In this document: one piece after another, positions 14,493 through 64,000 of the stretch
How the letters are laid out: each line of letters begins with the position of its first letter
How positions within the stretch are numbered: the stretch's first letter is position 1
Source of the DNA: Chitinophagales bacterium
GTDB lineage: Bacteria; Bacteroidota; Bacteroidia; Chitinophagales; Saprospiraceae
Assembly: GCA_013298845.1 (NCBI GenBank)
Contig: JAAFJN010000017.1
Coordinates: 1 to 64,000 of the forward strand
Direction: 5' to 3'
Length of the DNA stretch: 64,000 bases
The notes under the pieces: model-generated
Told to the model about the DNA's origin: nothing
What the model saw: only the letters and a program-made list of their open reading frames with translations
Database searches by the model: none
Translations under genes and position numbers: made by a program

Positions 14493-14617
14493 ATTTTGAT
14501 ATTTTATTTTCTTGTGAAGGAGGGTTACACCAACCGGCATTACAAATAGCAAATAATTTTTGATGTGCAAATATACCGGATGTTTTTAAATTTCCCAAAG
14601 GGTTATCATCAACTATT

Positions 14618-15266
14618 TCATTTAATCTCTATTTTTTGACCAAGAAATATCGGTTCTTTATGCAGTATAAAATCAATAAACATGTTGACGCGTGCAAAAC
14701 GCTCCCGGAGTTTTGTTTTAAAGCCCATGTACGCATCGACGTCTTTTGCGTTAAATCCGATGGCGTTTAACCCTAATCTATTCGCAATGAAAATGGCGCG
14801 TTTATTGTGGAATTCTTGCGAAATAATGGTAAAATTATCCTGTCCGAAAATTTGCTTCAATCTTATTACCGAGTCATAAGTCCTAAAACCGGCATAATCC
14901 AAAATGATTAAACTATCCGGAATACCTAACTTTACCAATTCCGTTTTTCATATCGAGTGGCTCATTGTAATCGTCGCTACTATGATCGCCGCTAATCACA
15001 ATATACCTGATTTTTTGTGCACTCAACAACTCAACCGCTGCGGAAATTCGATGGTAAAAATACCCATTTAATTCACCAGACCTCAATAGTTTAGAGGTGC
15101 CTAACAACAATCCAACTTTATTATATGGAATGGCACGCACGTCATTATACACCAGATTTTCGGTCGTTTTTTCAACTTTGGAATGGGCAAACCAAATCGA
15201 AAAAATCAGCATCGCGGAAAAGGTAAACCAAACCACCCTTTTTAGTTTTGTAAGTTTGTAAATCAT
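14618..15266 (-). pseudogene. SanA/YdcF-like (DUF218) membrane protein, frameshifted
   Basis: Two overlapping frames together make one SanA/YdcF-like protein. The 5' frame (15266 to 14913) has a membrane anchor, VGLLLGTSK, HRISAAVELLSAQKIRYIVI, SGDHSSDDYNEPLDMKNG; the 3' frame (from about 14938 to 14618) continues with LVKLGIPDSLIILDYAGFRT, YDSVIRLKQIFGQ, IANRLGLNAIGFNAKDV. Family members have these as one chain (GD.S...YNEP..MK..L...G.P...I..DYAGFRT..S). Removing one base from the A5 run (T5 at 14944-14948 on the plus strand) would restore ...DMKTELVKLGIPD... . Either a real +1 mutation or a homopolymer sequencing error. SanA-type proteins are linked to envelope barrier functions. Confidence 0.8.
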
Positions 15267-15298
15267 TTGTTTTGCGTGGTGTTTTATGCTACTATTTT

Positions 15299-16198
15299 TT
15301 AACCAATATTTTTATTGTTTTCATACTCGTTGTGAATACGCATAATGAAATAACTAAACAAAACCGCGCCCAAAATTAAGGCATTATTTACAATTCCGTC
15401 CACCGAAAAGGAGATTTTGATTAAGATTGTAGAAATAATGAACCCCGAATTTCGGATAATTTTATGAAATTCATCCGAGTAGAAAAACGAAAACAAGAGT
15501 AATAGTACATCCACGGTGATCAAAACCGTGAAAAACTCATCAAAAAACACGTTGTTGATGTTTTTAAAGGCAATAATGCCATTTCGATAATCCCGGATGG
15601 TTTCGGTAGTCCAGTGAAAAAAGGAATAAAATGCCAACGCCACTAATACGGGTACCAACACAACGGCAATCGCTTTTTTTAAGCGCACAAACCGAACGAT
15701 TTTTTTCAGTTCGTGATCGGGCAGTTTTTTTTCGGAATGGTCGTCGCTAACACTGTTTTTGTAAAATAAATAAATGAGCAAAAACAAAATGAGCGAAGTG
15801 GCAACATCGTACGTGAACTGAAGATCGTTGGGGTTTTGAAACCAGTTGGTATTTAACTCAAGGTTGGCAATATCCTTGAATATTCGACGGATCACAATCA
15901 GGGTGATGATTTCAAATTGTTTGCCGATATACGTCGTGATTGACTTTGGCAAAAAATACACCAACAAATACACCTCGTACACCAGGATAAACGAAAATGG
16001 GGTGTAAATGGCCGCAATTGGGTTTTTGACCAATTTGGAATCTACCTGCAAGACACCTTGATGCACCAAAACGATGACCAATAAATGAAGGATATAACTG
16101 ACAATGGCGACGCCCAAGATAATCCTTTCGCTTCGCTCCTTGGTTTTGCCGGACAGCAAATATTCCGAAATCGCGCTGACTACATTTTTTATGTTCAA
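15299..16198 (-). CDS. Multi-pass membrane protein of unknown function
   Basis: 299 residues with about seven hydrophobic segments (roughly 27-47, 62-82, 92-108, 130-147, 173-193, 217-237 and 250-285) separated by charged loops, including a Lys/Asp-rich cytoplasmic loop around 150-175. I do not recognise the family and see no catalytic motif. It lies 32 nt upstream of the frameshifted SanA/YdcF-like gene on the same strand, so the two were probably co-transcribed. The region is AT-richer than the gcvP and gcvP-like housekeeping segments. Confidence 0.65.
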   Translation of the reverse strand: MNIKNVVSAISEYLLSGKTKERSERIILGVAIVSYILHLLVIVLVHQGVLQVDSKLVKNPIAAIYTPFSFILVYEVYLLVYFLPKSITTYIGKQFEIITLIVIRRIFKDIANLELNTNWFQNPNDLQFTYDVATSLILFLLIYLFYKNSVSDDHSEKKLPDHELKKIVRFVRLKKAIAVVLVPVLVALAFYSFFHWTTETIRDYRNGIIAFKNINNVFFDEFFTVLITVDVLLLLFSFFYSDEFHKIIRNSGFIISTILIKISFSVDGIVNNALILGAVLFSYFIMRIHNEYENNKNIG

Positions 16199-16199
16199 T

Positions 16200-16581
16200 G
16201 GTGGACCCGTTTAAAAAAAGTTTCAAAATGCGCACCCCGAATTCGTGAACTGCTTTGGCTATTTCAAAGTGGTTATCACCGATCAACGTTAAGTACTTAT
16301 TTCAAACCAATAAATTCGGTACATAGTTTAGTTTTGGTTAAAGAATAACTTTGCGCAAAAGCAATTTCCTCTTTTTTGGGGTCGCCGTTTTGAGCGATAA
16401 GGTAACAGGCGTAACGGGTAAGCATATAATCCTCGACTTCGCGCTTAGCCCCACTGCCTAGTTTGACCATTTTCGTGACCTCACGAAAATGGTCATCCAC
16501 ATTGAGCCGCTGTGTTTTACACGATTCCACCGCACGGTTTATAGCAACCACGAAGTTTTCCCACCTACAAAACTTTATCAC
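16200..16581 (-). pseudogene. dinD-like (BRO/KilA-type) gene remnant
   Basis: The frame 16581-16297 encodes RWENFVVAINRAVESC, VDDHFREVTKMVKLGSGAKR and MLTRYACYLIAQNGDPKKEE followed by IAFAQSY, which is the conserved core of DNA-damage-inducible protein D. It begins at a GTG right after an in-frame TAG (N-terminus missing) and loses family similarity after FAQSY. A neighbouring frame downstream (about 16286-16200) reads LIGDNHFEIAKAVHEF, which may be a displaced C-terminal piece. The family is usually around 270-290 residues, so only about one third survives. A decayed SOS-linked or mobile-element-borne gene, overlapping the 5' region of the deacetylase locus. Confidence 0.7.
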
Positions 16582-16582
16582 C

Positions 16583-16590
16583 TACATTTG
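16583..16590 (+). promoter_or_regulatory. -7 element directly before the deacetylase start
   Basis: TACATTTG matches TAnnTTTG and ends only 4 nt before the ATG at 16595. If used, the transcript would be leaderless or start inside the first codons. No good -33 TTTG is present. Low confidence. Confidence 0.3.
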
Positions 16591-16594
16591 CCCC

Positions 16595-17608
16595 ATGTTC
16601 ACCTGGTCCAGCCTTTCCGCCAAAATCGCCCAACGCGTCTCGCTGTGGTCCAACGATGCCTTTTTTGCCCTGGGCTGGCGGCAAATGCGTTCGGTGTTGT
16701 CGGGGCCGGGGCAACGGATTTTGGTTTATCACGGTTTGGATCAACGGGGCGAAACGGCCCTAAACGGTCGGTTCCTTTCCGCCGCCCGCTTTGAGGAACA
16801 GGTGCGTTTTTTGTCCGAAAATGCGCAAATTGTTGCTTTGTCCGATTATTTTTCCGGGAATTTTGATCAAAACCAGTTTGCCGTGGCCATTACCTTCGAC
16901 GATGGCCACCGGAACAACCGGCAATACGCGGTGCCGATTTTGGACAAATACGCGGCTCCCGCTACCTTTTTCCTGACTTCCGCCGCTGGGCGCGGTGCCG
17001 AATGGCTTTGGATGGATTTTTTGGACGTGGCCACTCGGCTGGCACCGGCAACGATTGAAATTGGTGGTCGGCAGTTTACCAAAAAAACGTGGCGGCATAC
17101 TCAGTATTTCGCGGACGGAAATGGCCGCAAACTGGTGGATTGGGCGCGGTACTCACCCTGGTCGTTTGTGCAGGCGATGGAAACGGCTTTGCTTGACGCG
17201 GGTGCCTGGAGCGGTGCCGAACACTGGGCGACGTATTGGCAATTGCTGGCCCCCGCCGAAATCCGGGAAATGGCCGCCAATCCGCGGGTGACCATTGGCG
17301 CGCACGGGCATACCCACCAGGATTTGGCGTACCTTTCACCCGAAGCCGCTGGTCTTGAATTGCAGCATTGCAAAGATTTTTTGGAAAAAACCACCGGGCA
17401 ACCCGTATCAGCACTCGCCTATCCGTTTGGTACGTACACGCGGCAATTGGTGGAAACGGCCGCGCAAATGGGCTTTTCGCAACAATTGGCCCTCGATTTT
17501 TTATTTCCCGAAGACCATACTGATCATCGTTTGCGCGAACGCATGTGCATGAACCCCTTTATTTCCGACGGAAACCAGTGGTTGGCCGTTAAAAAAGGAC
17601 AATACTAA
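16595..17608 (+). CDS. Polysaccharide deacetylase (NodB-type, CE4) family protein
   Basis: 337 residues; start at 16595 (MFTWSSLSAK), since the longer frame from 16463 covers the dinD remnant. The NodB core is visible: ILVYHGLD, AITFDDGHRNN (catalytic/metal Asp at D102-D103), APATFFLTS and GAHGHTHQDL with the HxxxH metal pair (H237, H241), then YPFGTY. No signal peptide is obvious, so it may act on a cytoplasmic or lipid-linked glycan precursor. Followed 30 nt later by a GNAT-like gene and, convergently, a GT9 gene, consistent with surface glycan assembly. Confidence 0.88.
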   Translation: MFTWSSLSAKIAQRVSLWSNDAFFALGWRQMRSVLSGPGQRILVYHGLDQRGETALNGRFLSAARFEEQVRFLSENAQIVALSDYFSGNFDQNQFAVAITFDDGHRNNRQYAVPILDKYAAPATFFLTSAAGRGAEWLWMDFLDVATRLAPATIEIGGRQFTKKTWRHTQYFADGNGRKLVDWARYSPWSFVQAMETALLDAGAWSGAEHWATYWQLLAPAEIREMAANPRVTIGAHGHTHQDLAYLSPEAAGLELQHCKDFLEKTTGQPVSALAYPFGTYTRQLVETAAQMGFSQQLALDFLFPEDHTDHRLRERMCMNPFISDGNQWLAVKKGQY

Positions 17609-17638
17609 ACTTCGACTCGCACCAGTATAAACAGAGCA

Positions 17639-18598
17639 ATGGACGCGTATATTTTTAAACGAATTGAACCGGGTAATTTGGCTGATCTTGTGTTTTTGGT
17701 CAAAAAAGTGGCCCAAAAGCGGCTGACAACGGCGTATTACCAAAAAAAATACACCACCCCGTGGGCCAATGGCCAATACCACGGCTGGTTGGCTTACGAT
17801 AAACGGAGCGGACAGGTGGTTTCGGTGGCGGCTTCTTTGCCCCTCCGCGCCGAGTTACCCGATGGCCGTCAGGTGCCGGTTACGCAAATGATTGAAACGT
17901 TCACCCTGCCCGAACACCGGGGGCGCGGGCTGATGACGGTTATGGTCAAAAAAATCCTGGAGGAACACCAAAACAACGGCACGCGTTTGTTTTTTGGGCT
18001 TTTAAACCAAAACAATGTCCACGGTTTTGTCAAAAAACTGGGTTTTACGCACACCGGTACGATGGTCTTTTTTAAAATCAACGTCCGCACGTTCCCGTTG
18101 GAGGCTTTGTGTCGGCGGTGTCGGGTGCCGGGTTTGTTTCGTTGGTGGGCCGGGCGCGTAGTTCGTCCCTTTGTTGCCCCTGCCGATGCGCCGCCGTTGC
18201 AAAATTCCGTGGTGCAGGAAGGCAACGCGGGTATCTTGCACGATGCGGCGTTTTTTCAATATAAATCCTTTACGTTCAATGGATTATACCGTTTTTCGGG
18301 AATTGATTCGTGGCTCAAATTGGAATCGGGTTTATTGGTGGGCGACGTCAATTTGCCCCTCCCCTGCCCCGATGCGCAATTGGACGAATGGCTGTTGACT
18401 TTGCAAAAAATAGCCCGGCGAGCGGGTGTACGGCAAGTTGTTTTCCAAACGCACCCGCAGTCGCGCTTGGGCCAAATGTTGTCGGCGCGCTTGAATCCGC
18501 ATCCATCCTGGTCGGTTTGTTGTTTGGCGGCAGACGATGAAATGCAGCCTTTTTTGGAAAAAATGCGGTTTGGTTACGGGGATTTTGAAACGTTTTAG
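17639..18598 (+). CDS. GNAT-fold acyltransferase
   Basis: 319 residues. The first 150 carry a GNAT domain: VTQMIETFTLPEHRGRGLMT is the beta4/P-loop acyl-CoA motif (RxxGxG/A as HRGRGLM), followed by FFGLLNQNNVHGFVKKLGFT. The second half (about 185-319) looks like a further acyltransferase-like lobe, as in double-GNAT or FemAB-like proteins; no other motif is recognised. Thirty nt downstream of the polysaccharide deacetylase and probably co-transcribed, suggesting modification of a sugar amino group freed by the deacetylase. That pairing is inference. Confidence 0.78.
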   Translation: MDAYIFKRIEPGNLADLVFLVKKVAQKRLTTAYYQKKYTTPWANGQYHGWLAYDKRSGQVVSVAASLPLRAELPDGRQVPVTQMIETFTLPEHRGRGLMTVMVKKILEEHQNNGTRLFFGLLNQNNVHGFVKKLGFTHTGTMVFFKINVRTFPLEALCRRCRVPGLFRWWAGRVVRPFVAPADAPPLQNSVVQEGNAGILHDAAFFQYKSFTFNGLYRFSGIDSWLKLESGLLVGDVNLPLPCPDAQLDEWLLTLQKIARRAGVRQVVFQTHPQSRLGQMLSARLNPHPSWSVCCLAADDEMQPFLEKMRFGYGDFETF

Positions 18599-18606
18599 AC
18601 GTGTTC

Positions 18607-19647
18607 TTACAATTCCAACAGTATTTTCGCCCGCTCCACGGCCATTTCGGGTGTGACGCGGGTGAGGCAACGGTTATCGCCCCAAATACATTGCGTGCGG
18701 TGACAATTGCCGCAGGGCAGATCATCGGAGGTAAACCCAAACGATTTTTCCCCCAGCGGTCGGCCCCAATAACTGGGCGATGCCCCCAAAAAGGCAATGG
18801 TAGGCACCTGATTCACCCAACTGGCGTGCAACAAAGCCCCGTCGTCGGAGAGGGCCAGGTCCATGCGCCGAACGAGATTAAACACTTCTTGGGTGGATGT
18901 TTCGCCAATTAAATCGAGGCAATGATCGCCCAGTTCCCGCGCCAATATTCGGGTTCTTTCCCGCAGCGCCGGGTAACCCACAAACACAAATTTGGCCGTT
19001 GGTTGCACCGCCTCAATCCACAATTGTGCAAAAGCCAGGTATTGCGTTTCGCCCCATTGCCGGGATGCAAATGCGCCGCAGGGATTGAGCAATACCAGCG
19101 GGTCGCGGCCATTCCAACCCTTTTCACGGAGTTTTTCAAGACCGCTGTGTTCATCGCGCAGGGCCATTTTTTGTTCGGCGTTAATGGGGGCAAAACCGAG
19201 CGCGTTCACGGTATTTTCGTAACGCCGCAGCACGTGAATTTTTGAAAACCGGTCAAATTGCGTCCACGCCGTGGGAAACAAGGCCCGTCGCGCCAGCCTG
19301 GAGAGCCGGTTGTTTTGCAGGTCAACCACTACATCGTAACGTTCTTTCAGCAAAGCGGGATACGCCTTTAACAAGTCCAGCGCCATGGGCCAGCCGCCCC
19401 GTGCGTGCGGCAGGGCGTGAATTTTGTCAAAAACGGGCATGTTTTGTGGCAGTTCGGCGTATGCGCCGCCCACCAGTAAGTGAAACTCCGCGTCTGGCAA
19501 TTGTGCTTTTAGGGCCTGCGCCGCCAACAGCGACACCAATACATCCCCAAAAGCGTGGTACCGGATAAACAACACTTTCTGGGGCAAATGCGGTTTCGTC
19601 CAGGGGCGCGATTGAATGGGTTCGGCGTCGGGGAATTGGAATTGCAT
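18607..19647 (-). CDS. Glycosyltransferase family 9 (heptosyltransferase-like)
   Basis: 346 residues. GT9 signatures: KVLFIRYHAFGDVLVSLLAA at the N-terminal Rossmann start, DVVVDLQNNRLS, LLNPCGAFASRQWGETQY and the donor-binding LALSDDGALLHASWVNQVPT followed by IAFLGASPSYWGRP. The C-terminus carries a C-x2-C...C cluster (DLPCGNCHRTQCIWGDNRCL) typical of ADP-heptose:LPS transferases. Predicted to add a sugar to LPS core or another envelope glycan at the cytoplasmic face. Converges with the GNAT gene (8-nt gap) and is followed upstream by the cytochrome lipoprotein gene, 6 nt away. Confidence 0.88.
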   Translation of the reverse strand: MQFQFPDAEPIQSRPWTKPHLPQKVLFIRYHAFGDVLVSLLAAQALKAQLPDAEFHLLVGGAYAELPQNMPVFDKIHALPHARGGWPMALDLLKAYPALLKERYDVVVDLQNNRLSRLARRALFPTAWTQFDRFSKIHVLRRYENTVNALGFAPINAEQKMALRDEHSGLEKLREKGWNGRDPLVLLNPCGAFASRQWGETQYLAFAQLWIEAVQPTAKFVFVGYPALRERTRILARELGDHCLDLIGETSTQEVFNLVRRMDLALSDDGALLHASWVNQVPTIAFLGASPSYWGRPLGEKSFGFTSDDLPCGNCHRTQCIWGDNRCLTRVTPEMAVERAKILLEL

Positions 19648-19653
19648 GCTGGA

Positions 19654-20919
19654 TTATTGGTAAGATTTCAATATTTTGCGAAATTCATCGGCGGTGATGG
19701 AGGTGAGTTCCAAACTGAAACTATTGACCGGTTTTATGGTAGTTTTGTACTCGATGAATTTTCGATGCCCATTTTCTTCGCGGGTAAATGCAATGATGGT
19801 AACGGGTTCGTTGAGCGGTAAATTCACCTTTTCTCCGTAAATATTATACATAGTGTAGTATTCGCCAAATTTGACAAAAGAAACAATGGATTTATAACGG
19901 TCAAAAATCATATGCATTTCAACGTCTTCGTTAATCTTAACTTTGAAATTCTCAACTACATCCTCTGTATTGATAAAATAAGACCATTTAAGCCACTCAC
20001 ATTTATGCGTGCTGAACTCGTAATAAAAGGTGTGGTTAAATGGAAAGTTAATTGAATCACTTGAATACTTAAACGTGCTGTCCGTGACACTTTGATAACA
20101 TTCTTGTAGTCCGATCCGACCCAAATCAAAGTCTTTGTTGCAAATTTCGGTTCGGAGACTTTCGCTACTGATATAGTCAAATATTTGATTAATTTCCTCA
20201 TCCGATAAAAACTGAAAACTATTCATGAGCACGGGTTTATACGCATTCCAATTACAAACGGCTAAAGTATCGCCATCAGCGATCATTTTTTGCGAATTTC
20301 GGGTAAATTTAATCAGCCATTCCCGTGTTCTTCGGTTTTCCCCCATTTCAATGCACCCTAAAGCCGGACCGGTAAACCTTTGGTCTATATAGTGGCAAGG
20401 TTGACAATATTTCACGTACAACTGTTCCCCGGTTTTTAGACTTTCCAATGTTTTAGGGCTAAGCAGCGGGGCTTGGTACTTCCAACTCGTTTCGCCATTA
20501 TTTACATTCATGGTGAATAAACTCATGTTGGGATGAAGGCCATTGGTGGGTACCTTTACCGAGATGGGACATTCCGGGTTAATCTCTAAAATCGGGTTGG
20601 TAATGATGTTGATCATGCCCGCCGATTCCAGCAATTTGCCCTCCTGATCCACGGTGGGCAGTCCTGACATAAGAATATCACTTTTGGTTAATGCTTCCTG
20701 TACCACCAGTTCAAATGTAGTACCGTTGGCCGTGGCAAAGGTATTGGCGCAAATATGAATCAGAACGCCCGATTGGGTTCTTACCGTAGTATCTGCACCG
20801 CTGGTTAGCACAAACTTTTGTTGGGCGATATTATCCGGGTTGAGTTCCCCAAACGAAGTTGGAGTAGCATTTTTACAGCAAACAAGCAGTAAAAATGGGA
20901 TGAAGAGGAGGTATCTCAT
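19654..20919 (-). CDS. Lipoprotein with monohaem cytochrome c domain
   Basis: 421 residues. Signal peptide with lipobox-like LLLVCC (acylated Cys 14 or 15). Residues about 25-150 are a beta domain of unknown type. A class-I cytochrome c domain follows (about 162-250): YVKYCQPCHYIDQRFTGPAL gives haem ligation at C172/C175/H176, with M232 in PVLMNSFQF as candidate sixth ligand and FLSDEEINQIFDYI as the C-terminal helix. The last 160 residues are unassigned. The start codon overlaps the stop of the upstream T9SS propeller gene as ATGA, so translation is probably coupled. Likely anchored in the outer membrane and possibly handles electrons at the surface. Confidence 0.82.
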   Translation of the reverse strand: MRYLLFIPFLLLVCCKNATPTSFGELNPDNIAQQKFVLTSGADTTVRTQSGVLIHICANTFATANGTTFELVVQEALTKSDILMSGLPTVDQEGKLLESAGMINIITNPILEINPECPISVKVPTNGLHPNMSLFTMNVNNGETSWKYQAPLLSPKTLESLKTGEQLYVKYCQPCHYIDQRFTGPALGCIEMGENRRTREWLIKFTRNSQKMIADGDTLAVCNWNAYKPVLMNSFQFLSDEEINQIFDYISSESLRTEICNKDFDLGRIGLQECYQSVTDSTFKYSSDSINFPFNHTFYYEFSTHKCEWLKWSYFINTEDVVENFKVKINEDVEMHMIFDRYKSIVSFVKFGEYYTMYNIYGEKVNLPLNEPVTIIAFTREENGHRKFIEYKTTIKPVNSFSLELTSITADEFRKILKSYQ

Positions 20920-53673: not shown

Positions 53674-54756
53674 CTACTGTTTGACAAATGGCAAAGCCAC
53701 TTGCACCGACCCGGACGCCAATGCTTTTAACGTATACGAACCGGCTGGCAATTGATTCATGTCCAATTGGGTGGGTGGTTCCTCCACGTCAAAAAGGGAC
53801 AATACTACCCGGCCTGCGTGGTCGTATATTTCTATTTGGTCCGGCTTAAAGTCTTGCCAATTTACATTTAACCGACTGTTTATCAAAGGGTTAGGATAGA
53901 GAAAAGGTTGTTTGCCGGCAAAAACAGCCAACAAAATGGGCGAATACGTAAACGTGCCATCTTCATCCCGCATTTTCAACCGATAAAAATACGTGCGGCC
54001 GGTTTCAACCGCTTTATCCGTAAACAGGTACGTATTATTCGTCCAGGAACGCAAACTTTGCTGGTAACCAATTTTGGTGAAATCCACCCCGTTGGCAGAA
54101 CGTTCAACATCGTACCCTTCCACGTTTATTTCTCGTTCCGTGTGCCAGTGCAGGTCCACGTAATCGGGGCCGGTTTTCAGGTCAAAACGGGTTAAAAGTA
54201 ACGGCAGCGGTGCCGATAAAGAGTAAAAAATATCGTCTCCCGCCGACGTTTGCGAAGGATAAAAAATGTCCAATAAATTGGGATCAAACAACGGATTTCC
54301 CGCGCCGTCGTTGACCGCAAAAGCCGGATAACCGAGCACACTGGGGTAATTGGTTATCAGGTCCAACTGCGGCGTGCCGGAACCACTTAATACCACCTTA
54401 AACACCAAATACTCGGTGTCTTGCACGTACGTTTGGGACAAAATAGTATTGGTAAAATTAAAGATCTGGATATTTTGCCCGCCGTACAATGGCCCCGGCC
54501 CCGTGCTGATGGTCAAACCCGGAAAAGCGGTCGTATTGGGCGTAACAACCCCAAAGGTCAAATCGGCCGTGGGGGCGTACCGCACGTCAAATTCAAAATA
54601 ACCAATCGCCGAGGTAATATTGCCGTTCACCGGTTTAATCCAAAAACTCAGTTCTTTGGTCGTGGAGTTAAAAGAAAAACTTCCTTTCATGTATTGCGCC
54701 GCCAATACCGTTGGGGCGAAAAACACGACCAGGATTATACAAAAAATATTTTTCAT
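53674..54756 (-). CDS. T9SS-secreted protein with cohesin-like N-terminal domain
   Basis: 360 residues. Signal peptide MKNIFCIILVVFFAPTVLAA. Residues about 24-170 form a beta-sandwich-like domain, GSFSFNSTTKELSFWIKP, IGYFEFDVRYAPTADLTFGV, NTTAFPGLTISTGPGP, TEYLVFKVVLSGSG, whose strand order and G.(F/I).(F/I).(V/I).Y pattern recall cohesins and related anchoring sandwiches. Then a fibronectin-like linker (LHWHTEREINVEGYDVERS) and T9SS tail: YPNPLINSRLNVNWQDF ... AGSYTLKALASG, ending LPFVKQ. The start is 2 nt after the stop of the 1,879-residue gene that ends in dockerin-like repeats. Cohesin identity is by pattern, not search. Confidence 0.7.
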   Translation of the reverse strand: MKNIFCIILVVFFAPTVLAAQYMKGSFSFNSTTKELSFWIKPVNGNITSAIGYFEFDVRYAPTADLTFGVVTPNTTAFPGLTISTGPGPLYGGQNIQIFNFTNTILSQTYVQDTEYLVFKVVLSGSGTPQLDLITNYPSVLGYPAFAVNDGAGNPLFDPNLLDIFYPSQTSAGDDIFYSLSAPLPLLLTRFDLKTGPDYVDLHWHTEREINVEGYDVERSANGVDFTKIGYQQSLRSWTNNTYLFTDKAVETGRTYFYRLKMRDEDGTFTYSPILLAVFAGKQPFLYPNPLINSRLNVNWQDFKPDQIEIYDHAGRVVLSLFDVEEPPTQLDMNQLPAGSYTLKALASGSVQVALPFVKQ

Positions 54757-54758
54757 GT

Positions 54759-57700
54759 TTAATAGCCTTGTTGAATAATGTTGGTAGATGCCCCTAAAAT
54801 ATTGAGCAACCGTAAATAGTCGTTGTTGGTCACAAATGGCCCCGTCATTTTAAGCGTTCCATCCATGTTTAGATCTTGTTGCAAATACACGCCCGATAAC
54901 ACATTGGTCGAAGCCCCCAACACGTTGAGCAGTTTCAAATAATCGTTATTGGTCACAAATGGCCCCGTCATTTTAATTACCCCGTCGCCGTTGGTATTGC
55001 CGCCCCAAAGGGATACTTTGCCATCGGGTTGCACAAAAGCCACTTCATTGGGGTGCCCAACGGGTTTGTATAAAGCGGTCAAACTACCCGTAAAATCTAC
55101 GGAAGCAGCCGTTTCGGTGAGTGCCACCGTTGCCGCCGACCGAACGCCCAAATGGTTGCGGTGCCGAACGGCCACGTAATAGTCGTCCGCTACGGCGTTG
55201 TAAAAATGAAGGGGCGAAACGCCGTCCATATCCACTACATCGCCATCGCGTTGCAACAGGCCCGCGCGGGTGTACAGGCGCGTGGCGGCGTTGGTTTTAC
55301 TCCGCAATTCGATAAACACCCAATCAACAATCGCGTTTTGGTCGGTGGGCGTCAAAGCGGAGGGGCGCAGTGTTTCGCCGCCGCCCTGCACCACCGGGAA
55401 ACTCAACGCGGCGTACGGCTCATTCGTGGGAATTAAATTATTGACCCTAAGAGCGTCGTTCATTAAACCCGTTCCGGTGTTGTAGGCGCTTTGCAAATAC
55501 ACTTTGGGCGATACCCGAACGCCGTTGCGCACCACGATAAATTGGCTAAAATTGGTCAGCGTCAAACCGGTGCTGAACGTAATGGAACCGCTTGTTCCGG
55601 TGGTTACGGCATCGGCCTGATCCACGTACACCCATTCGGATGTTTGGTAGCCGTTGGAAATTCGTTTGTACAATTTATAACGTTCGGGTACGGTGGAATT
55701 CACCGGAATCCCCGAAAAAGTCAAACTGGTTACCCCGGAAAAAGTAGCGTTGGTGCCGTAATTGTTCACAACCCAATAGCGATTGGCCACCAATTCGTAA
55801 TTCGCGGGTACCGCAATGGGCATACTGTCAATGCGACTCACGCACAGTTCGCCCCCCGGATACGTGCCGGAACCCGGGAACGTCAGGGACATTTGGACCG
55901 TTGAAAAATTGTAATTGCCGCCAGTGGTTACCGATTGCCGTTCGCTGGCCCCTTTTTCAAACGGCCCGGTTTCAGATTCCCGCGTAGCAGTGCCCTGCAT
56001 AATGGCGTTGGCCGCGCCGACCCGGTCGTACACCAAACCCGATTCTTCGTTGAACTTGTAATACGATTTTAACGACGGGTCCACGGCTGCGTAACTGGGA
56101 TACGTCAGGTGCCGCAATTCCCTGATTTCGCTTTGGGTCAATGCCCGGTTGTACAGGCGTACTTCGTCCATTTGACCGTTTAAGGTGCGGCCGGTGTTGC
56201 CCCGGTCATTTCCCAAATAAAATACGGTACTAAAATTCACCGCCGGGTGCGTAACGCCCGTTCGGGGGGTGGGTACGCCGTTCAGGTAAATGGTGGCTTT
56301 ATTGGGTTCAATCACCAACGCCACGTGCGACCATACATCGGCGGGCAGCACGGGACCGTTGTTCCATCCCCAGAAACTGCCATTCCAGTGGTAGCCCAGT
56401 TGGTTGCCCGTTTCGAGGTTTAAACCCGATCCGCTACCGGCGTTTGACATTATCAACGCCGTGTAACTCGACTGTGCACCGTTAGGTTTTACCCAGGCCG
56501 AAAGCGTTACCGTATTCGTGGTGCCCAAATCAACGGGAGCAGCAGTGACGATATAGTTGCTGCCGTTGTTCAAACGCGCCGTTTTTTTAGGGCCATCGTT
56601 GAGGCCGCAGGGGCTTCCGGGATCAACTTCCACAAAAGCAGGTGCCATATTCGTCATGCCAATTTGGATGTCGCCGGTAATATTCACCTTGCGGTTGTAC
56701 GAAAGCGTATTACCCGACAAAGTCAATCCTTTGGCCCGGGGAAGCCAGTTGGCCGCGTCGCTGTTGACCGGCCGAGTGTGCACAATGGCGCTGGAAGCCG
56801 CGCTCAGGCCCGTAACAAAGGTACCATCGGTGGCTTTCAGATCAATACTTTCGATGGGGGCAAAACTGGTTGCAGAACCGTAGTAATTGATAAACCATTG
56901 GTTATTGGGGGTTGTGTTCACCGCCGGATTGAGGTTGGGTTTTACGTTTAACCGCGTAGCCACCAGCATACCAGACGGCACATCGCAATCCGAGAGGGTA
57001 ATATTGGTGCCCGGATCGGCAAAATTATAGGTGTATTGCCCCGAAGACAACGGAAGCAACTGCGCTACGCCGCCGCCAATGGGGGCAGTACTGGCGACCA
57101 ACGTTGCGCCGCCGTACAAAGAACCGTGGCGGGTACTGACATTATCAGAAACCAAAGCAATGTCGTTGGTGGCGTTAAACTGATAATACGCCATCAGAGC
57201 GGGATCACTGGCGATAATATCTTCGCGGGTAATATGGCGCAAGCGGCGGATTTCGTCGTCCGTTAATGCCCTTCGCCACATCGTTACTTCGTCAATATCT
57301 CCTTTATAACTTTGGCTGTAAAAGCCCCGCCCAATGGCAATTTGTTCAAAATTACCGGGGTTAAGGGTGCGATTATCCACGTATTTTTTATCGTTGAGGT
57401 ACAATGTTGCACCCGTCGGTGTTATCACCAAAGCAACGTAACTCCATTCGTTGGAAGGAATGGTTAAGCCACTAATACCGCCGTACCAAATATTCTCGTT
57501 ACCGGGCCAACGGTACCACAGTTTAGTTCCCGCGTTATCAAAAATCAATCCTTCGGCGTTGGAGCAGTGGCCGCACCATTGGCCATTGGTCAACATGCCC
57601 ACCATTCCCGTTTGGGTGCCATTGGGTTTGATCCAGCCGGTAACGGTAAAATGGGTCAAATTTCCACTGCGCGGTTCGGATACCACAAAAAAATCGCTGT

Positions 57701-60398
57701 TACTGGCCGTCCGCAAGGCTTGTCCACGAATAGTATCGGGTGCACAACCCGCCAAAACGGTAATGGTTACGCTGCTGTTTTTGGTGCCCAAAGGGGTGGT
57801 CAGCGTCATGGTTGCAGTATAGGTTCCCGGCGTTCCGTAAATGACCTTGGGATTGCGCACCGTTGTACTGCCCGTCCAGGTAGCCCCCGGGAAGTCCCAC
57901 GACCAACTTGCGCCGGTGTGGTTGACCATCGAATAATCTTCAAAATAAAACGTATCGCGCGGGCAATAGGCCGTTTTTTTATCCACGCTGGCCTGGGGTA
58001 CAAACGTGGTGGGTGTTTCGTAAAAATCGCTGCTCCACAAACCACGGTCGCCCGTTGCCATCCGAATTTGACCGGCTTTGTAAAATGGCCGCAAATAACG
58101 GTTGCCGATTCGGGCGGGTAAACCCATATTGGCCGGTTGCCAATCGCTGTGGGAATTATTTCGATAAAAAACCGTGTGTTTTACGGCCAAATAAATACCG
58201 CCATCGGTGCCACCAACGTGCATGAGCGCCATGGGCAATAAGCCGTTAAGCAGCGACGTGGTTAAGTTTGTCCACGATGCTCCGCCGTCGGTACTTTTAA
58301 ATACTTTGTAGTTCGAATTGGTTCGGTTGTAAGCAATCCAAATGTTGTCCACGTTCAGCGGATCCATGGCGATAAAAATACCATCGGCGGTGGGTGCGTT
58401 GGCCGGTTGGGCAATTTCGGTGAAAGTAAGACCGCCGTCGGTGGTTTTCCAGAGTTTCCCGGAGGTGTACGAGGAACCGGATTTAATCAACTGCCCCACA
58501 AGCATCACATTGGGGTTGGCGCGGCTAATTTCAATATCGGTTACAATATTTGCCGCACTCGAGCCAAACGTATACACCGCCGTGAATGAATTGCCGCCAT
58601 CGGTGGTTTTCCAAAGTACATTGTCGCGGCCCAATAAATGCGTATTGAGGTATTGCGGATGAATAACCAATTCGCTGCGTTCGTAGTTGCCCACGCCGTC
58701 GTTGGGGTATTTTCCGTAAAAAAACTCATCCATTTGCCCGGTAATGGTGGAAGGTAAACTCCGCCCGTCAATGATACCTTCGAACCACATTTTGGCGGGA
58801 TTTAACACACTAATGTACGCCGCCGAAGGTTCGCCGCTGCCAAAACCCAAAAACTCGTTGTTCGGATACCCTTCTCGGTACCCCGATGCCCCGTTGTGGT
58901 AATAAGAACCCGCCCGCGTATCTTCGTTCCATCCCTGGTCAAAATACCAAAAATCGGTACCGGCAACACCCCGCGCTTTGGAGGAGCGACTGGTGAGCGT
59001 CGAATTGTACAAATCAATACCGCCGTCCGACGTTACCCAAAAATCATTCGGGCCATTGAACATATACTGTTGTTGGTCTTCGTGCTGGCCCGATACCGGG
59101 TTGGTCATTACCGTGGCAAAACCGTCGGTGGTGCGGTAACTATCCAGGTTGCCACACAAAACTAAATTATCATTGGCGTCAGACACTTCGATGGAGCACA
59201 CCCGGAAATCGTAGTGGACCTGCATGCCTTTTCGGTTGTTCCAGGTTACCGGTTGCGACCAGGTAGCCCCCGCATCGGTGCTTTTGGCCACTCCTACGAA
59301 CGGATTCGCTACGTTATCGCCCGTTACCCGACCCAAAATAAAACAATAAATCAGGTTAGGATTACCCGTGGAAACGGTCATGCGGCCGCCGCCATCGTAA
59401 TCCTGCGCATTAGCAAACCAACCGGAAATACTGGCCGACCAAGTGGCGCCGCTATCGGTGCTTTTGTAAAAATCACTTTTATTGCCGTTTTTACAAATGG
59501 CAAATAACGTGGTGGGATCGTCGGTTTTCATTTTCAAATCCCACGCTTTTCCCGCTCTGATGATGGAAAAATTGGTCCCGTCGGTGGTTTTGTAAATACC
59601 CGGACCAGCCGACAAATAAATAATGTTCGGGTTAGTGGGGTGAATCGCAAAAGCCGTCGGGTCAAGGTCCATTACGGTCAGGATATTGGTCCAGGTTACG
59701 CCGCCGTCGGTGGTTTTCCAAAGTTTATTATCCGTGCCGTAGTACACAATATCCGGGTTGGTGGGGTGTACCGCCAACGCCATTTCGATGGTCGTATAAC
59801 CTTCAAAATAATAATTTTCACTGATAGGACTCCACGAATCGCCGTGGTTGGTGGTTTTGAAAAAAATGCCATTTTCCGAAACCGTGTACAAAATATCGGG
59901 AAAAGCGGCACATTGAGCAATGCGCGTTTGGCACGTGTGCGCGCTGCGGTGGGTATTGTTTTGGTTGCGGTTTTCGTAAGGGCCAATTTGTTGCCAGGTA
60001 GCCGAAACGGTTGATTTATTCGCCGTTAGTTGTGCGTCGAGCAATGCTTTTTGGGCCAACCACTCCTGCGTCGCGAGGTCGCGTTCTTCGTCGGTTTGCG
60101 CCGCGATAAAACCACTGCGCAAGACGTAATTATTGCGTTCGAGGGCTTTGCGCCAATGTTTATAATTGCGCGTATCCCGATTTTTTTCAAACGTATGTGA
60201 TTGATAATAAGCCCGATATAGCCGATCCACTTCAAATACATTAGGGGCCTCCGAATACATCAATTTTGCCCAATCGGGCGTGTTTTCGTCAATCAAAGGA
60301 TAATTGACAAATTTGATGTTTTGCAAACTGGCCTGCGCTTGTACCCCAATTGCGGCACACAGCACCCATAAGAAAAGTAAAAAAGATTTTATGTTCAT
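54759..60398 (-). CDS. Giant surface protein: BNR/sortilin-like propeller, PKD, two LamG and two C-terminal dockerin-like repeats
   Basis: 1,879 residues from the ATG at 60398 (MNIKSFLLFLWVLCAAIGVQ signal peptide). Residues about 120-800: many DGG.TW-type BNR repeats (KTTDGGVTWTNI, KSTDSGATWSAS, KTTDGGLTFTEI) of a Vps10/sialidase-like propeller. Then a PKD domain (WSWDFPGATWTGS ... TYTATMTLTT), two LamG jelly rolls (LTHFTVTGWIKPNGTQTG; TVTLSAWVKPNGAQSSY, each with DEV.L/MW.RALT...IR.LRHIT/LTY), and beta domains. The last 80 residues are two near-identical units, NTNGDGVIKMTGPFVTNNDY-LKLLNVLGAS and DLNMDGTLKMTGPFVTNNDY-LRLLNILGAS, that resemble dockerin/EF-hand calcium loops (DxNxDG) and replace a T9SS tail. 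Directly coupled (2-nt gap) to the cohesin-like gene. Confidence 0.85.
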   Translation of the reverse strand: MNIKSFLLFLWVLCAAIGVQAQASLQNIKFVNYPLIDENTPDWAKLMYSEAPNVFEVDRLYRAYYQSHTFEKNRDTRNYKHWRKALERNNYVLRSGFIAAQTDEERDLATQEWLAQKALLDAQLTANKSTVSATWQQIGPYENRNQNNTHRSAHTCQTRIAQCAAFPDILYTVSENGIFFKTTNHGDSWSPISENYYFEGYTTIEMALAVHPTNPDIVYYGTDNKLWKTTDGGVTWTNILTVMDLDPTAFAIHPTNPNIIYLSAGPGIYKTTDGTNFSIIRAGKAWDLKMKTDDPTTLFAICKNGNKSDFYKSTDSGATWSASISGWFANAQDYDGGGRMTVSTGNPNLIYCFILGRVTGDNVANPFVGVAKSTDAGATWSQPVTWNNRKGMQVHYDFRVCSIEVSDANDNLVLCGNLDSYRTTDGFATVMTNPVSGQHEDQQQYMFNGPNDFWVTSDGGIDLYNSTLTSRSSKARGVAGTDFWYFDQGWNEDTRAGSYYHNGASGYREGYPNNEFLGFGSGEPSAAYISVLNPAKMWFEGIIDGRSLPSTITGQMDEFFYGKYPNDGVGNYERSELVIHPQYLNTHLLGRDNVLWKTTDGGNSFTAVYTFGSSAANIVTDIEISRANPNVMLVGQLIKSGSSYTSGKLWKTTDGGLTFTEIAQPANAPTADGIFIAMDPLNVDNIWIAYNRTNSNYKVFKSTDGGASWTNLTTSLLNGLLPMALMHVGGTDGGIYLAVKHTVFYRNNSHSDWQPANMGLPARIGNRYLRPFYKAGQIRMATGDRGLWSSDFYETPTTFVPQASVDKKTAYCPRDTFYFEDYSMVNHTGASWSWDFPGATWTGSTTVRNPKVIYGTPGTYTATMTLTTPLGTKNSSVTITVLAGCAPDTIRGQALRTASNSDFFVVSEPRSGNLTHFTVTGWIKPNGTQTGMVGMLTNGQWCGHCSNAEGLIFDNAGTKLWYRWPGNENIWYGGISGLTIPSNEWSYVALVITPTGATLYLNDKKYVDNRTLNPGNFEQIAIGRGFYSQSYKGDIDEVTMWRRALTDDEIRRLRHITREDIIASDPALMAYYQFNATNDIALVSDNVSTRHGSLYGGATLVASTAPIGGGVAQLLPLSSGQYTYNFADPGTNITLSDCDVPSGMLVATRLNVKPNLNPAVNTTPNNQWFINYYGSATSFAPIESIDLKATDGTFVTGLSAASSAIVHTRPVNSDAANWLPRAKGLTLSGNTLSYNRKVNITGDIQIGMTNMAPAFVEVDPGSPCGLNDGPKKTARLNNGSNYIVTAAPVDLGTTNTVTLSAWVKPNGAQSSYTALIMSNAGSGSGLNLETGNQLGYHWNGSFWGWNNGPVLPADVWSHVALVIEPNKATIYLNGVPTPRTGVTHPAVNFSTVFYLGNDRGNTGRTLNGQMDEVRLYNRALTQSEIRELRHLTYPSYAAVDPSLKSYYKFNEESGLVYDRVGAANAIMQGTATRESETGPFEKGASERQSVTTGGNYNFSTVQMSLTFPGSGTYPGGELCVSRIDSMPIAVPANYELVANRYWVVNNYGTNATFSGVTSLTFSGIPVNSTVPERYKLYKRISNGYQTSEWVYVDQADAVTTGTSGSITFSTGLTLTNFSQFIVVRNGVRVSPKVYLQSAYNTGTGLMNDALRVNNLIPTNEPYAALSFPVVQGGGETLRPSALTPTDQNAIVDWVFIELRSKTNAATRLYTRAGLLQRDGDVVDMDGVSPLHFYNAVADDYYVAVRHRNHLGVRSAATVALTETAASVDFTGSLTALYKPVGHPNEVAFVQPDGKVSLWGGNTNGDGVIKMTGPFVTNNDYLKLLNVLGASTNVLSGVYLQQDLNMDGTLKMTGPFVTNNDYLRLLNILGASTNIIQQGY

Positions 60399-60404
60399 AT
60401 TTTT

Positions 60405-60455
60405 AAAAAAAACGGGCTTTTTGCCAAAACCCAAACGGATTCGGCAAAAAGCCCG
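60405..60455 (-). terminator. Strong hairpin terminator just upstream of the giant gene
   Basis: Perfect 13-bp stem (CGGGCTTTTTGCC at 60413-60425 with GGCAAAAAGCCCG at 60443-60455); in the minus direction it runs into a U-run from 60412-60405 that ends 6 nt before the giant gene's ATG at 60398. It would stop transcripts from the SdrD/Big2 gene, and leaves no room for a promoter for the giant gene between hairpin and start codon. Confidence 0.85.
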
Positions 60456-60464
60456 GTGCATGAA

Positions 60465-63400
60465 TTAATGTGGTCCGGTCACCTGAATTGTTCCGCAGGA
60501 AGGAGCCTGCATCCAAAGGGTTACCTCTTTCACCGAGGAGCAACTGCTTCCGGCACCTCCGTTACTTCTGATGTAATAGTTCGTAGCCGCCACCGGCGAT
60601 ACCACGCTGGTGGCCAACGGATTAGTACCGTTTTGGGCATCCGCCAAAGTCGTGTGGTACGTGATGGAAGTGCCCGAATTGGTCAACACCAACGTGGCCA
60701 AATTGAACGAACTGCCCGCGCAAATGGTCGCTTGCGGCGTTACCGTCAGCGTTGGTGCAACGCAACAACCAGCCAAGGGAATATTGCACAACTGAATCTC
60801 CGGATCGCCAGGGGCTAACACAAAATTGAAGGTATAAGGGTTCGCTCCGGCGGTAAAATTATCCAGCGATGTGCCGTTGGTACTTCCCGAACCCACGAAA
60901 TATGGATTGGGTTGGCCCGTTGGATCAATCGAAGCCAATGGTAAACGGGTAGTGCTCAAGGTATAACCCGCTGGCGGCGTGTACGTAAGGGTATAGGTCC
61001 CGGCGGTTCCATCGGTGAAGAACTGGTAAATCCCCGAAGCGCCGTTTTGCGTCATCAAAACCGGACTGGGGCCGCTTACCGAAATGGTTCCCCCGGCGAT
61101 AATCTGGCCCGTCTCCTGGCAGTACACATAACCCATCGGGTCAGTTGGACAAATCGCCGAAGTGCTCACCGTAACCGGATAATCGGTAAAACAAATGTTA
61201 GATCCCCCAAAAATACGGATCACATAGTTCGCAGCGGGCGTATTCGGGATATTCGCAACGATATTGCCGGGTAAAGTTCCCGGTACCGCCGTTGCACCCG
61301 CGTAATTGGGACCGGTGTACGTATTGCCGAGGCTAAAACCGAACCGGTCGGCCCCCGTGTGTGACATCAATACGATTCGACCATTGTTGCCGGGTACGGC
61401 CCCCACACAATCGCCCGGTACCGCAATGACTTTGGCCGTTGGCGGCGTGCAGCAGGCTTGCACCGTTACCGCAACGGTGGCCTGGCAGTTGTCGCTGCTG
61501 GTGTACGTAATATTGGTGGTACCCGCGCTTAATCCCGTTACTACACCGGTGTTTGACACCGTGGCAACGGCGGGATTGGAAGACACGTAAGGATTCATCG
61601 CCGCCGGTATGCCAGAACCCGTCAGGTTCAACGTCGCTCCCTCGCAGATAGTGCCACCGTTGGGGGTAATCGCGGCGTTGACGGCTACCGTAGCGGTCGT
61701 TTGGCAACCGTTATTATTGGTGTAAGTAATAATCGCTGTGCCCGCGCTTATCCCCGTTACAACCCCGGTGCTGCTAATCGTGGCTACTGCAACATCCGAT
61801 GATACGTAAGGATTGGTCGTGGCCGGGGTACCCGAACCGGTAAGGGTGATGATGTTACCAATGCACACACTGCCGCCCGATAACGTGGGCACGGCATTTA
61901 CCGTTACCGTAGCCGTGGCTTGGCAGCCGTTGTTGTCGGTATAAGTAATGGTGGTGTTGCCTGCGCTTACGCCCGTTACCAAACCCGCGTTGGTTACCGT
62001 GGCCACGGCGGGATTGGAAGACGCGTAAGGATCCATCGCTGCCGGAGTGCCGGAACCCGTGAGCGTCGTGCCGCTGCCCACGCAGATGGTACCGCCGCTC
62101 AGCGTTGCTTGGGCTTGTACCGTAACGGTGGCGGCATCTGATGCGGCCAAACAAGGGCCGCTTCCATCCGGATCCGCGATACTTGCAGACAAATTAATGA
62201 TCTGGCCCACTTCGGTTAATGCCGGTGTATAGGTAAATGTCCCGGTGCCATTGGCCAATGTACTCACCGAAAAATTACCCAATGTGCCATTGCTGGTGCT
62301 CAGTGTGGCCGGGCCATTCGATACCGTATAGTTAAAGGTCACGGCGTTGATTCCGCAGGTATTTACGTTGGTTTCCGTAATCACCACGGATGGCGGTGTC
62401 GCGCACACCGAACAGGACGCAACCGCTGGACCCATGATACTATACGTGCAAAGGGCATCCGCACTGAACATCGCCGTCAGGTTGGTGCTTGTGCCATCGG
62501 CGACTAACTGAACATTGGTAAATGTATGCGAAGTTGTGCTCCCCAATGAACCGACGGCCACGCTGTACGTCCCAATAACATCGCCGGTTAAGGTGAGTGT
62601 GCCGGTTAAAGGCGCATTGGTATAGGTTACCGTAATATTAGCAGTGTAGTAGTCATCGGTATTTTGCACGGTGCCATTGCTGTTACACGTTGAGGCATTG
62701 GCAAGGGTAATATTCGTCATCAGGCAAGCCGGGGCAAAACCAAAATCAAAGGTATGGTTGCTGCCCTGGCCGGGTGTTGTGGCGAGGTACGCCGGATAAC
62801 CATTCAGACCGGACAATCCGCCACTTAAACCGCTTAACAAGGTGCCATCGCTGTCATTTTGGTCAGGTTGCGTGCCCACTCCGTTATTTGAAGTGGTTAA
62901 AGCATACTCCATTCCGCCAATAATCAAACGATTGGTTGAGGTGTTAAACTGAGACATGTTTTTACCAACTACAACATAATATCCGGTATTGGCCGATAAC
63001 CCGGTAAACGGACCAGTGTTACTGTATGGCGCAATGGAATCCACGTTCGTTTGGTCAAAATAATATTCACCATTTGCCCCGGTTGTTGTTTGCCCTACCA
63101 ATGTTCCATCTGTTTTATACAATTCTACCTTAACTCCAGACAGCGGTATTTCACAAGGATCCTGTACGCCATCTTTATCCGTATCTACCCAGACATAATT
63201 GCCAATTTGAATAGGTACAGCATTGCATAATGCTTCTATATCTCCCATGTTACCGCCCTTACGGTTACTATCTGGGTCTCCTTCCTGAACTAATATCCAG
63301 CCTTTATTGTAGGTACCATTACTATTGAGGGTGCGCAAGCCACTCGAATTTACCAGTCCCTGGTTACGAATCGGGTCGAATGATGCAGCAACAATGCTAG

Positions 63401-64000
63401 TGGTGCCTGGCACCTTCACCAAACCACCCAAAATTGTCTCAGCATGTCCAGCCTGAGTATTGGTTTGATTAACATAGTTATCATCATAGTATTCAACAAA
63501 GTCCGGAATTGCAGGGAGATTAGTCGAACCTAAATCAGATATTGTCTGAAGACAAGGTGCCGTTGTTGACTCTTTAACAAAACCTCCGGCTGTTTTACAT
63601 AGTTTAATGATATCGCCAGCCGCTACCGGAGTAAAGTAAGTGCTACCCGTAGTCACATCATAACGACGGTTACCATAAGCAGTTTGATAAGAAAAACGGT
63701 CTCCAAAACCTAATACCATTGAACCATCAGTATCAAATTCAATATCCTGAAGCATAGGTTGAGGTTGTGATACCAGCGCGTTGGTCAGAGGGAGCACCGA
63801 CGGATTCCAGGTATTGGTCCATGCACGCCATGCCGCTGGAGAATAGGTATCATCCGAGCGAAACGTTGCGGCACTCCTTGGATAATTCATATCCATGGTT
63901 GCAATCTGGGTAAAAGATGTGCCTCCATTCCAGCGATACACATACGCATCAAGGTCTGCTACATTACCAGAGGTTTCGGCAGTACACACACCGCCAATAT
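60465..64000 (-). CDS. Giant cell-surface protein with SdrD_B and Big2-like repeats (5' end beyond window)
   Basis: Partial: at least 1,177 residues are visible and the frame is still open at 64000 (the GTG at 63989 is only an internal codon). Near the N-terminal part: NYVWVDTDKDGVQDPCEIPL followed by SGVKVELYKTDGTLVGQTTT, an SdrD B-type repeat that would carry Ca-binding residues. Three roughly 90-residue Big2/Ig-like repeats follow (TLSGGTICVGSGTTLTGSGT, TLSGGSVCIGNIITLTGSGT, TPNGGTICEGATLNLTGSGI; each ending in ...GNTTITYTDNNGCQATATVT-type strands), then a metallophore-like Cys pair region and other beta domains. The end IQVTGPH shows no T9SS tail, so attachment is unexplained. Upstream of the terminator before the dockerin-like giant gene. 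Confidence 0.78.
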   Translation of the reverse strand, partial: IGGVCTAETSGNVADLDAYVYRWNGGTSFTQIATMDMNYPRSAATFRSDDTYSPAAWRAWTNTWNPSVLPLTNALVSQPQPMLQDIEFDTDGSMVLGFGDRFSYQTAYGNRRYDVTTGSTYFTPVAAGDIIKLCKTAGGFVKESTTAPCLQTISDLGSTNLPAIPDFVEYYDDNYVNQTNTQAGHAETILGGLVKVPGTTSIVAASFDPIRNQGLVNSSGLRTLNSNGTYNKGWILVQEGDPDSNRKGGNMGDIEALCNAVPIQIGNYVWVDTDKDGVQDPCEIPLSGVKVELYKTDGTLVGQTTTGANGEYYFDQTNVDSIAPYSNTGPFTGLSANTGYYVVVGKNMSQFNTSTNRLIIGGMEYALTTSNNGVGTQPDQNDSDGTLLSGLSGGLSGLNGYPAYLATTPGQGSNHTFDFGFAPACLMTNITLANASTCNSNGTVQNTDDYYTANITVTYTNAPLTGTLTLTGDVIGTYSVAVGSLGSTTSHTFTNVQLVADGTSTNLTAMFSADALCTYSIMGPAVASCSVCATPPSVVITETNVNTCGINAVTFNYTVSNGPATLSTSNGTLGNFSVSTLANGTGTFTYTPALTEVGQIINLSASIADPDGSGPCLAASDAATVTVQAQATLSGGTICVGSGTTLTGSGTPAAMDPYASSNPAVATVTNAGLVTGVSAGNTTITYTDNNGCQATATVTVNAVPTLSGGSVCIGNIITLTGSGTPATTNPYVSSDVAVATISSTGVVTGISAGTAIITYTNNNGCQTTATVAVNAAITPNGGTICEGATLNLTGSGIPAAMNPYVSSNPAVATVSNTGVVTGLSAGTTNITYTSSDNCQATVAVTVQACCTPPTAKVIAVPGDCVGAVPGNNGRIVLMSHTGADRFGFSLGNTYTGPNYAGATAVPGTLPGNIVANIPNTPAANYVIRIFGGSNICFTDYPVTVSTSAICPTDPMGYVYCQETGQIIAGGTISVSGPSPVLMTQNGASGIYQFFTDGTAGTYTLTYTPPAGYTLSTTRLPLASIDPTGQPNPYFVGSGSTNGTSLDNFTAGANPYTFNFVLAPGDPEIQLCNIPLAGCCVAPTLTVTPQATICAGSSFNLATLVLTNSGTSITYHTTLADAQNGTNPLATSVVSPVAATNYYIRSNGGAGSSCSSVKEVTLWMQAPSCGTIQVTGPH

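Follow-up and report, generated by a model that had tools for sequence, protein, structure and literature searches.

The window, i.e. the whole stretch of 64,000 nucleotides that was analysed, contains on its minus strand a unit of two genes (Table 1), in which the stop codon of a giant gene (with an alternative in-frame start of its ORF at 60461) is separated by a gap of 2 nt from the start of a small gene, P0002. This close spacing, reported in a first-pass annotation of the locus, agrees with the ORF coordinates. The same annotation assigned a T9SS tail to the small protein and none to the giant one, and both assignments are confirmed: P0002 qualifies as a T9SS type A protein by its TIGR04183 score (30.6 bits vs a cut-off of 23), and the Pfam and NCBIfam models identify no T9SS sorting domain on the giant protein. 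With terminator-like hairpins at both ends, the giant gene and P0002 may constitute a transcription unit of their own; the region as a whole contains 16 such hairpins, compared to 14.4 in shuffled sequences (sd 4.0), i.e. no excess. Further upstream, an ORF at 60465-63998 encodes at least 1,177 aa and runs past the edge of the window; its C-terminal end, inspected by eye, shows no T9SS-like tail.

Table 1. Genes, protein domains and hairpins of the two-gene unit, with positions in the window
Feature	Position	Strand	Description
Giant tail-bearing gene	54759..60398	minus	1,879 aa ORF
Giant protein, domain order			signal-like N-terminus (by eye), sortilin/BNR-type repeats, PKD, two LamG_3, X, DOC
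X domain	55017..55541	minus	~175 aa, directly N-terminal to DOC; modelled at high confidence
DOC, dockerin-like pair	54762..55013	minus	extreme C-terminus of giant protein
DOC unit 1	54885..54998	minus	begins NTNGDGVIKMTGPFVTNNDY
DOC unit 2	54762..54875	minus	begins DLNMDGTLKMTGPFVTNNDY
P0002 partner gene	53674..54756	minus	360 aa ORF
P0002 N-terminal domain	54187..54696	minus	residues 21-190, taken as divergent COH
P0002 T9SS type A sorting domain	53680..53901	minus	TIGR04183 / PF18962, residues 286-359
Terminator-like hairpin 3' of P0002	53581..53610	minus	13 pairs, then ATTTTTTT
Terminator-like hairpin between upstream gene and giant-gene start	60413..60433	minus	

The last ~80 residues of the giant protein had been described as two near-identical units with DxNxDG loops, and the comparison bears this out: the units NTNGDGVIKMTGPFVTNNDYLKLLNVLGASTNVL and DLNMDGTLKMTGPFVTNNDYLRLLNILGASTNII share identical residues at 25 of 34 positions, and when the last 200 residues were shuffled 30 times the best self-match was 10/34. 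At the DNA level 75 of 114 bases (38 codons) are identical, which indicates that the likeness has been kept at the protein level and does not stem from a fresh duplication. The window tail thus has tandem metal-loop units of the DxNxDG type, with the first unit reading NxNxDG. Together they form the last third of a module of ~260 aa (X + DOC). The first-pass annotation had also proposed to look for the same tail elsewhere in the genome; five further proteins with X + DOC were found, which makes six copies with that of the window. The cargo of the five other tail ORFs comprises one alpha-amylase domain, three Big_9/cadherin-like regions and one TSP3.

The consensus of DOC is roughly GNxNxDxKxKYQGxxND...GDxNMDGxxKYQGxxND...EQLP, i.e. 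DxNxDG-type loops with an insertion; D and G of the second loop are invariant across the 44 DOC compared. A dockerin loop has 12 residues, and the DOC loop is longer. None of the 44 DOC matches Dockerin_1 (PF00404) at E up to 0.1, the window tail gives no match to this Pfam model at E up to 10, and EF-hand_8 matches two of the 44 (best E 0.02). Some relatives have, after the same X domain, apparent classic 12-residue dockerin loops (L060, L061, L063-L065; the loop of this sort in the L065 tail reads GDVNLDGLCDADDRSYVWNN), "classic" being our interpretation of the sequence, and the L064 tail matches Dockerin_1 with E 1.2e-4, slightly short of the curated cut-off. One relative with a 6.4-Mb genome (G005; e.g. 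L063, L192-L220) has the X domain at no fewer than 146 places at E up to 1e-10, as counted from the 150 of 218 candidates that were scored; the one tail examined in this genome (L063) ends in dockerin-type loops.

The model of the window tail, built with 75 relatives (pLDDT 81.6, pTM 0.81), is confident for the X domain and weak for DOC (block means 43-78). A search of 350,542 PDB chains with this model reported two type II X-dockerin chains (4u3s_B, 4wi0_B) as the best structure matches, and X-dockerin chains occupied ranks 1, 2, 5, 7, 9, 11 and 14 (4u3s_B, 4wi0_B, 2b59_B, 3kcp_A, 4fl4_C, 5g5d_B and 4fl4_I, respectively), with alignments spanning 217-261 columns; the 3kcp and 4fl4 chains, at ranks 7, 9 and 14, are ones that we take to hold an X-dockerin. 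These matches are weak (E 0.024-0.46; TM 0.33-0.58 by target, 0.33-0.40 by query), no structure in the PDB matches the tail model at E 0.001 or less, and ranks 3, 4 and 6 are taken by Ole e 1-type and transthyretin-like chains. The label "dockerin-like" of the first-pass annotation is hence supported by the tail model, whose two best matches are X-dockerin dyads, albeit at weak E-values. Judged from this model, the window tail resembles cellulosomal X-dockerins, which is a resemblance and not a proof.

The domain found at the N-terminus of the partner proteins, COH, is an unclassified beta domain. None of the 52 COH matches the Pfam model Cohesin (PF00963) at E up to 0.1, the comparison with PDB sequences gave nothing credible (the best E, 0.064, belongs to a cadherin), and the hhalign comparison of the COH profile with 22 Pfam-type cohesin domains from the window's genome and its relatives gave a probability of 0.4, within the range of 15 shuffles. 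On these three grounds (Pfam, PDB sequences and the hhalign profile) the identification of COH as a plain cohesin was rejected. The structure of COH from Phaeodactylibacter luteus was modelled as all-beta (pLDDT 95.9, pTM 0.90), and a Foldseek search of the PDB with this model found no chain at E 0.001 or below; the best 50 rows include 12 cohesins, 17 clathrin adaptor mu subunits and 7 CBM3 modules, with TM of 0.38 or less in every one of them. The first-pass annotation had called the N-terminal domain of P0002 cohesin-like. This description fails at the sequence level, where that domain has no Pfam match and COH no sequence match to cohesins, and it gains little from the fold, since the model of a relative's COH (that of P. 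luteus) gave weak cohesin matches only. COH is cohesin-like in its gene order and co-variation, and is not shown to be so by sequence or fold.

P0002 is an outlier among the partners. The COH model built without P0002 gives it E 0.07, a value equalled by one of 20 shuffles. In turn, the profile of the P0002, L059 and L062 domains, with the signal peptides removed, matches the COH family with a probability of 62.8% and E 7e-5 over 113 columns (best of 20 column shuffles: E 0.024). We predict that the N-terminal domain of P0002 is a divergent COH, which joins the family by profile-profile comparison alone. Two other lines of support were discarded: the identification from the first alignments was circular, since the first COH model contained P0002, and a profile comparison with the signal peptide kept (95.7% probability) was inflated by that peptide. 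Among the relatives found, P0002 is closest to the L059 partner (35% identity; E 1.5e-13 when 7 sequences were searched); the partner in L062 is similar too, at 20% identity, which in the same 7-sequence search is not significant (E 0.08). The motif R/K-x-TGP-x(3,4)-ND is common to the DOC of the window tail (KMTGPFVTNNDY) and of the tails of L059 (RATGPPTINDY) and L062 (RMTGPSTINDA). Because the L059 and L062 tails carry the DOC motif of the window, the sequences suggest that a change of tail type goes with a change of partner type. The L055 partner weakly matches P0002 (E 0.002), yet the second DOC unit of L055 is of the KYQG type, hence the correspondence between motif and partner is not exclusive.

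Analysis of the genomic neighborhood revealed that all five other tails in the window's genome are followed, on the same strand, by a gene for a secreted protein with a clear N-terminal COH, the sixth tail being that of the window pair with P0002. A DOC-only search of named genomes yielded 65 loci, many of them from metagenome bins, from Saprospiraceae, Spirosoma, Rudanella, Runella, Emticicia, Persicitalea, Fibrivirga, Flavobacterium and others; at least 8 of the 65 (L122, L130, L134, L141, L150, L151, L163, L171) overlap the set of relatives on which the models were trained. When tails are told apart by their last 120 residues alone and no less than 700 bp of sequence behind them is required, these loci contain 79 distinct ones; a COH gene comes next for 50 of them, with a median gap of 79 bp, and does not for 29. 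Viewed from the other side, 51 of the 66 distinct COH-starting genes follow a DOC gene, 2 follow a COH gene, 3 lie at an edge and 10 follow something else (6 of these 10 are later COH genes in Spirosoma-type clusters, located behind another small gene). As a background, of 157 genes without DOC or COH, 10 precede a COH gene. In a set of relatives represented by one best tail per genome, COH is next in 16 of 23 cases and not in 7, as counted with a COH model that included P0002.

Searches of whole genomes, in which only part of the first-look candidates was scored in some genomes, agree as to where the two domains occur. In 120 genomes of the family the first X + DOC model matches 60 and the first COH model 16 (among the matches listed), and all 16 are within the 60. 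Of 296 genomes sampled from the phylum, at least 8 have DOC and at least 3 have COH, the latter being among the 8; in the other 5 genomes with DOC that model detects no COH among the candidates scored. One of the 3 is the window's genome; in the other two the COH match lies ~140 and ~210 bp downstream of the DOC match. Several loci (L165, L166, L167, L170, L178) encode tandem giant X + DOC proteins, and within these loci no COH was found between or after them. One tail (L133) is on a contig filed as Gammaproteobacteria, which is possibly misbinned, as is possibly the contig of a cyanobacterial bin that gave a weak pattern match without HMM support (L181).

The gene pair recurs generally, forms chains and includes proteins with multiple COH, all of which goes beyond the first-pass annotation (the COH models behind the annotation of chains and of multi-COH proteins included P0002). 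Sixteen proteins in the 65 loci have COH at the front and X + DOC at the back, resulting in head-to-tail gene chains (e.g. in Phaeodactylibacter luteus, L122; Flavobacterium soli, L144; Runella defluvii, L147; and Emticicia aquatica, L125), and 15 non-redundant chain proteins have yet another COH gene behind them. Proteins with two COH were found in Flavobacterium, and one ORF contains three. A single genome (G062) has several chain clusters (L103, L104, L105), of which L104 and L105 are similar, lie far apart and encode COH-front/DOC-back proteins of 3,449 and 2,210 aa. At L097, on contig C54 of the window's genome (G000), a COH-fronted ORF (13808-16009) ends 22 nt before an X + DOC ORF (16032-19982); the two may be one chain protein split by a frame change or by an error in the assembly of repeats.

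The distances among DOC were compared with those among the COH of the next genes for 77 pairs (non-redundant by the last 60 residues of DOC, with the window pair included), and the two are correlated with r 0.84, the highest value in 2000 permutations being 0.16. For DOC and the X domain adjoining it in the same chain, r is 0.69; the partial correlation between DOC and COH given X is 0.72, and that between X and COH given DOC is 0.14. In the 15 chain proteins, DOC is correlated with the COH of the next gene (r 0.85) more than with the COH of its own polypeptide (0.46), with partial correlations of 0.82 and 0.24, respectively, and the same sign in 99.9% of bootstraps. Such co-variation, at the level of sequences, is what a binding pair would be expected to show. 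The joint inheritance of adjoining DNA could mimic it, and the X-domain control argues against this explanation without excluding it.

The distribution of the T9SS sorting domains follows that seen in the window. None of the 117 tails matches the T9SS type A or B models, and among the 67 tail-less COH proteins 36 match type A and 9 type B at E up to 1e-3; some ORFs are shortened by frame breaks, and the tail-less COH proteins without a match include such cases. To judge by their ends, those without a match also seem to include proteins of ~190 aa from Spirosoma, Rudanella, Fibrivirga and Emticicia. All seven partners scanned in a smaller set have their own T9SS domain.

We consider it probable, taking the reading as a whole, that the two genes encode a plug and its socket: the X + DOC of the giant protein would be the plug, bound noncovalently, and as we infer in a calcium-dependent manner, by the N-terminal COH of P0002, which in turn would be exported and fixed on the cell surface via its own T9SS type A domain and would serve as the anchor through which the giant propeller/LamG protein is displayed. 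By analogy with the two-interface dockerins, for which this is proposed in passages of PMC5141474, either of the near-identical DOC units could bind. In the relatives, a COH-front/DOC-back protein would accept the plug of the preceding gene's product and itself plug into the COH encoded by the following gene; the last protein of the chain often has a T9SS type A or B domain, and some proteins have two or three COH. The noncovalent attachment of the giant protein to a T9SS-anchored partner had been proposed in the first-pass annotation, and it now gains comparative support from gene order, co-variation and the distribution of T9SS domains, with the binding itself inferred from these; the tails that have no COH gene in the next position (29 of 79, and 7 of 23 in the set of relatives) count against the reading. 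As the first-pass annotation had hinted, the tail proteins may take a route that is not standard for T9SS: they might travel through it with their partner, bear a hidden signal or reach the surface by another path. For the sequence of assembly and the passage across the outer membrane, we can offer a tentative extension, which we hold to be conceivable and on balance doubtful: giant proteins without a T9SS signal might dock on their T9SS partner in the periplasm and be exported as hitch-hikers, the complex or chain passing the T9SS translocon to yield ordered noncovalent surface fibres, with the order of the proteins given by the order of the genes.

A different reading of the same tail is that X + DOC is itself a new T9SS sorting signal, for which the next gene supplies a helper or shuttle comparable to the PorP/SprF-like proteins for type B CTDs. 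The tail is C-terminal like T9SS signals and known T9SS domains are missing from all 117 tails; moreover, type B CTD genes frequently have a PorP/SprF-like shuttle gene linked to them (passages of PMC12618676 and PMC9143113), and signals other than A and B do exist, i.e. type C (a passage of PMC10202324). We nevertheless regard this reading as unlikely, since the partners are secreted, often with a T9SS domain of their own (7/7 of those scanned; 36 type A and 9 type B among the 67), and show no sign of outer-membrane barrels, and since the resemblance of the tail fold to X-dockerins, the multi-COH proteins and the COH-front/DOC-back chains fit a plug and a socket better.

Doubts may also be raised about the partner. 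If the N-terminal domain of P0002 were not a COH, an unrelated secreted gene would merely happen to follow the tail, which would account for the failure of the COH search that leaves P0002 out of the model. The profile-profile link to COH makes this quite improbable, as does the fact that P0002 shares its position, its signal-like start and its T9SS type A ending with the other partners, and that its closest relative (L059) itself follows a tail with the DOC motif of the window. Least probable in our view is that the gene pairs are the split halves of former single proteins, with adjacency and co-variation due to the inheritance of one block of DNA and no specific binding. The short distance from DOC to the next COH (~80 bp, and 2 bp in the window), the ability of tandem cassettes to duplicate and a Pfam-type dockerin and cohesin encoded in one open frame on another contig of the window's genome (G000:C5) are all compatible with such an origin. 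However, DOC tracks the COH of the next gene more closely than the adjoining X or the COH of its own polypeptide, and the models used here detect no single chain with DOC followed by COH in the 65 loci. The plug-and-socket reading remains the preferred one, and the recurring order of a plug gene and then a socket gene suggests that bacteria of this group build their cell-surface assemblies in a modular fashion.

If this is true, a plug-and-socket type of surface assembly that is best known from the cellulosomes of anaerobes would extend to T9SS-using Bacteroidota, including named strains of Spirosoma, Runella, Emticicia, Phaeodactylibacter and Flavobacterium. It would also account for the surface display of very large proteins that lack a known T9SS signal, and it would raise the question of whether whole complexes can be exported by T9SS. 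The many natural pairs, with a gene order that hints at who binds whom, could possibly be used as protein-coupling tools. Noncellulosomal cohesin and dockerin modules were reportedly the subject of a survey in 2009. Passages of PMC5831590 and PMC6247017 state that the Bacteroidetes cellulose degraders treated there lack cellulosomal dockerins, and for this reason a dockerin-like system in Bacteroidota would be a surprise. In the open-licence literature, searched in full text and judged by titles and the openings of abstracts, we found no description of a DOC/COH pairing with T9SS in Bacteroidota and, by title, nothing on such piggyback export through T9SS.

Of the known systems, three invite comparison. 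The proteins of the same genomes with Pfam Dockerin_1 (PF00404) and Cohesin (PF00963) domains likewise have paired DxNxDG loops and beta-domain partners, but 0/44 DOC and 0/52 COH match those models. The window's genome itself has Pfam Cohesin at 17 places (E up to 1) and Dockerin_1 at 15 places (E up to 0.001), and at G000:C5:112413-113816 a dockerin is followed by a cohesin in a single open frame, whose end looks T9SS-like by eye. The T9SS type B adhesins with their linked PorP/SprF-like anchors, as described in passages of PMC12618676 and PMC9143113, are similar in that the C-terminus of a large surface protein cooperates with a protein encoded by a linked gene; in that case, however, the T9SS signal resides on the large protein and its partner is an outer-membrane barrel, whereas here the T9SS domain is on the partner, which looks like a soluble secreted protein. 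The closest known arrangement, by analogy, appears to be the anchoring of cellulosomes by an X-dockerin and a surface cohesin, in which a large scaffold ends in an X module and a dockerin that is bound by the receptor domain of a separate cell-surface protein (passages of PMC5141474). The likeness to the cellulosomal type II XDoc and its anchoring cohesin (ScaA/CipA on surface scaffoldins) lies in an X + dockerin-like end and in a separate surface protein as the putative receptor; the system described here differs from it in the loop with an insertion (DxNxDGxxKYQGxxND), in a receptor that is not detectably a cohesin, in partners with T9SS domains, in the head-to-tail gene chains and in the cargo observed, which is mainly adhesin-like repeats.
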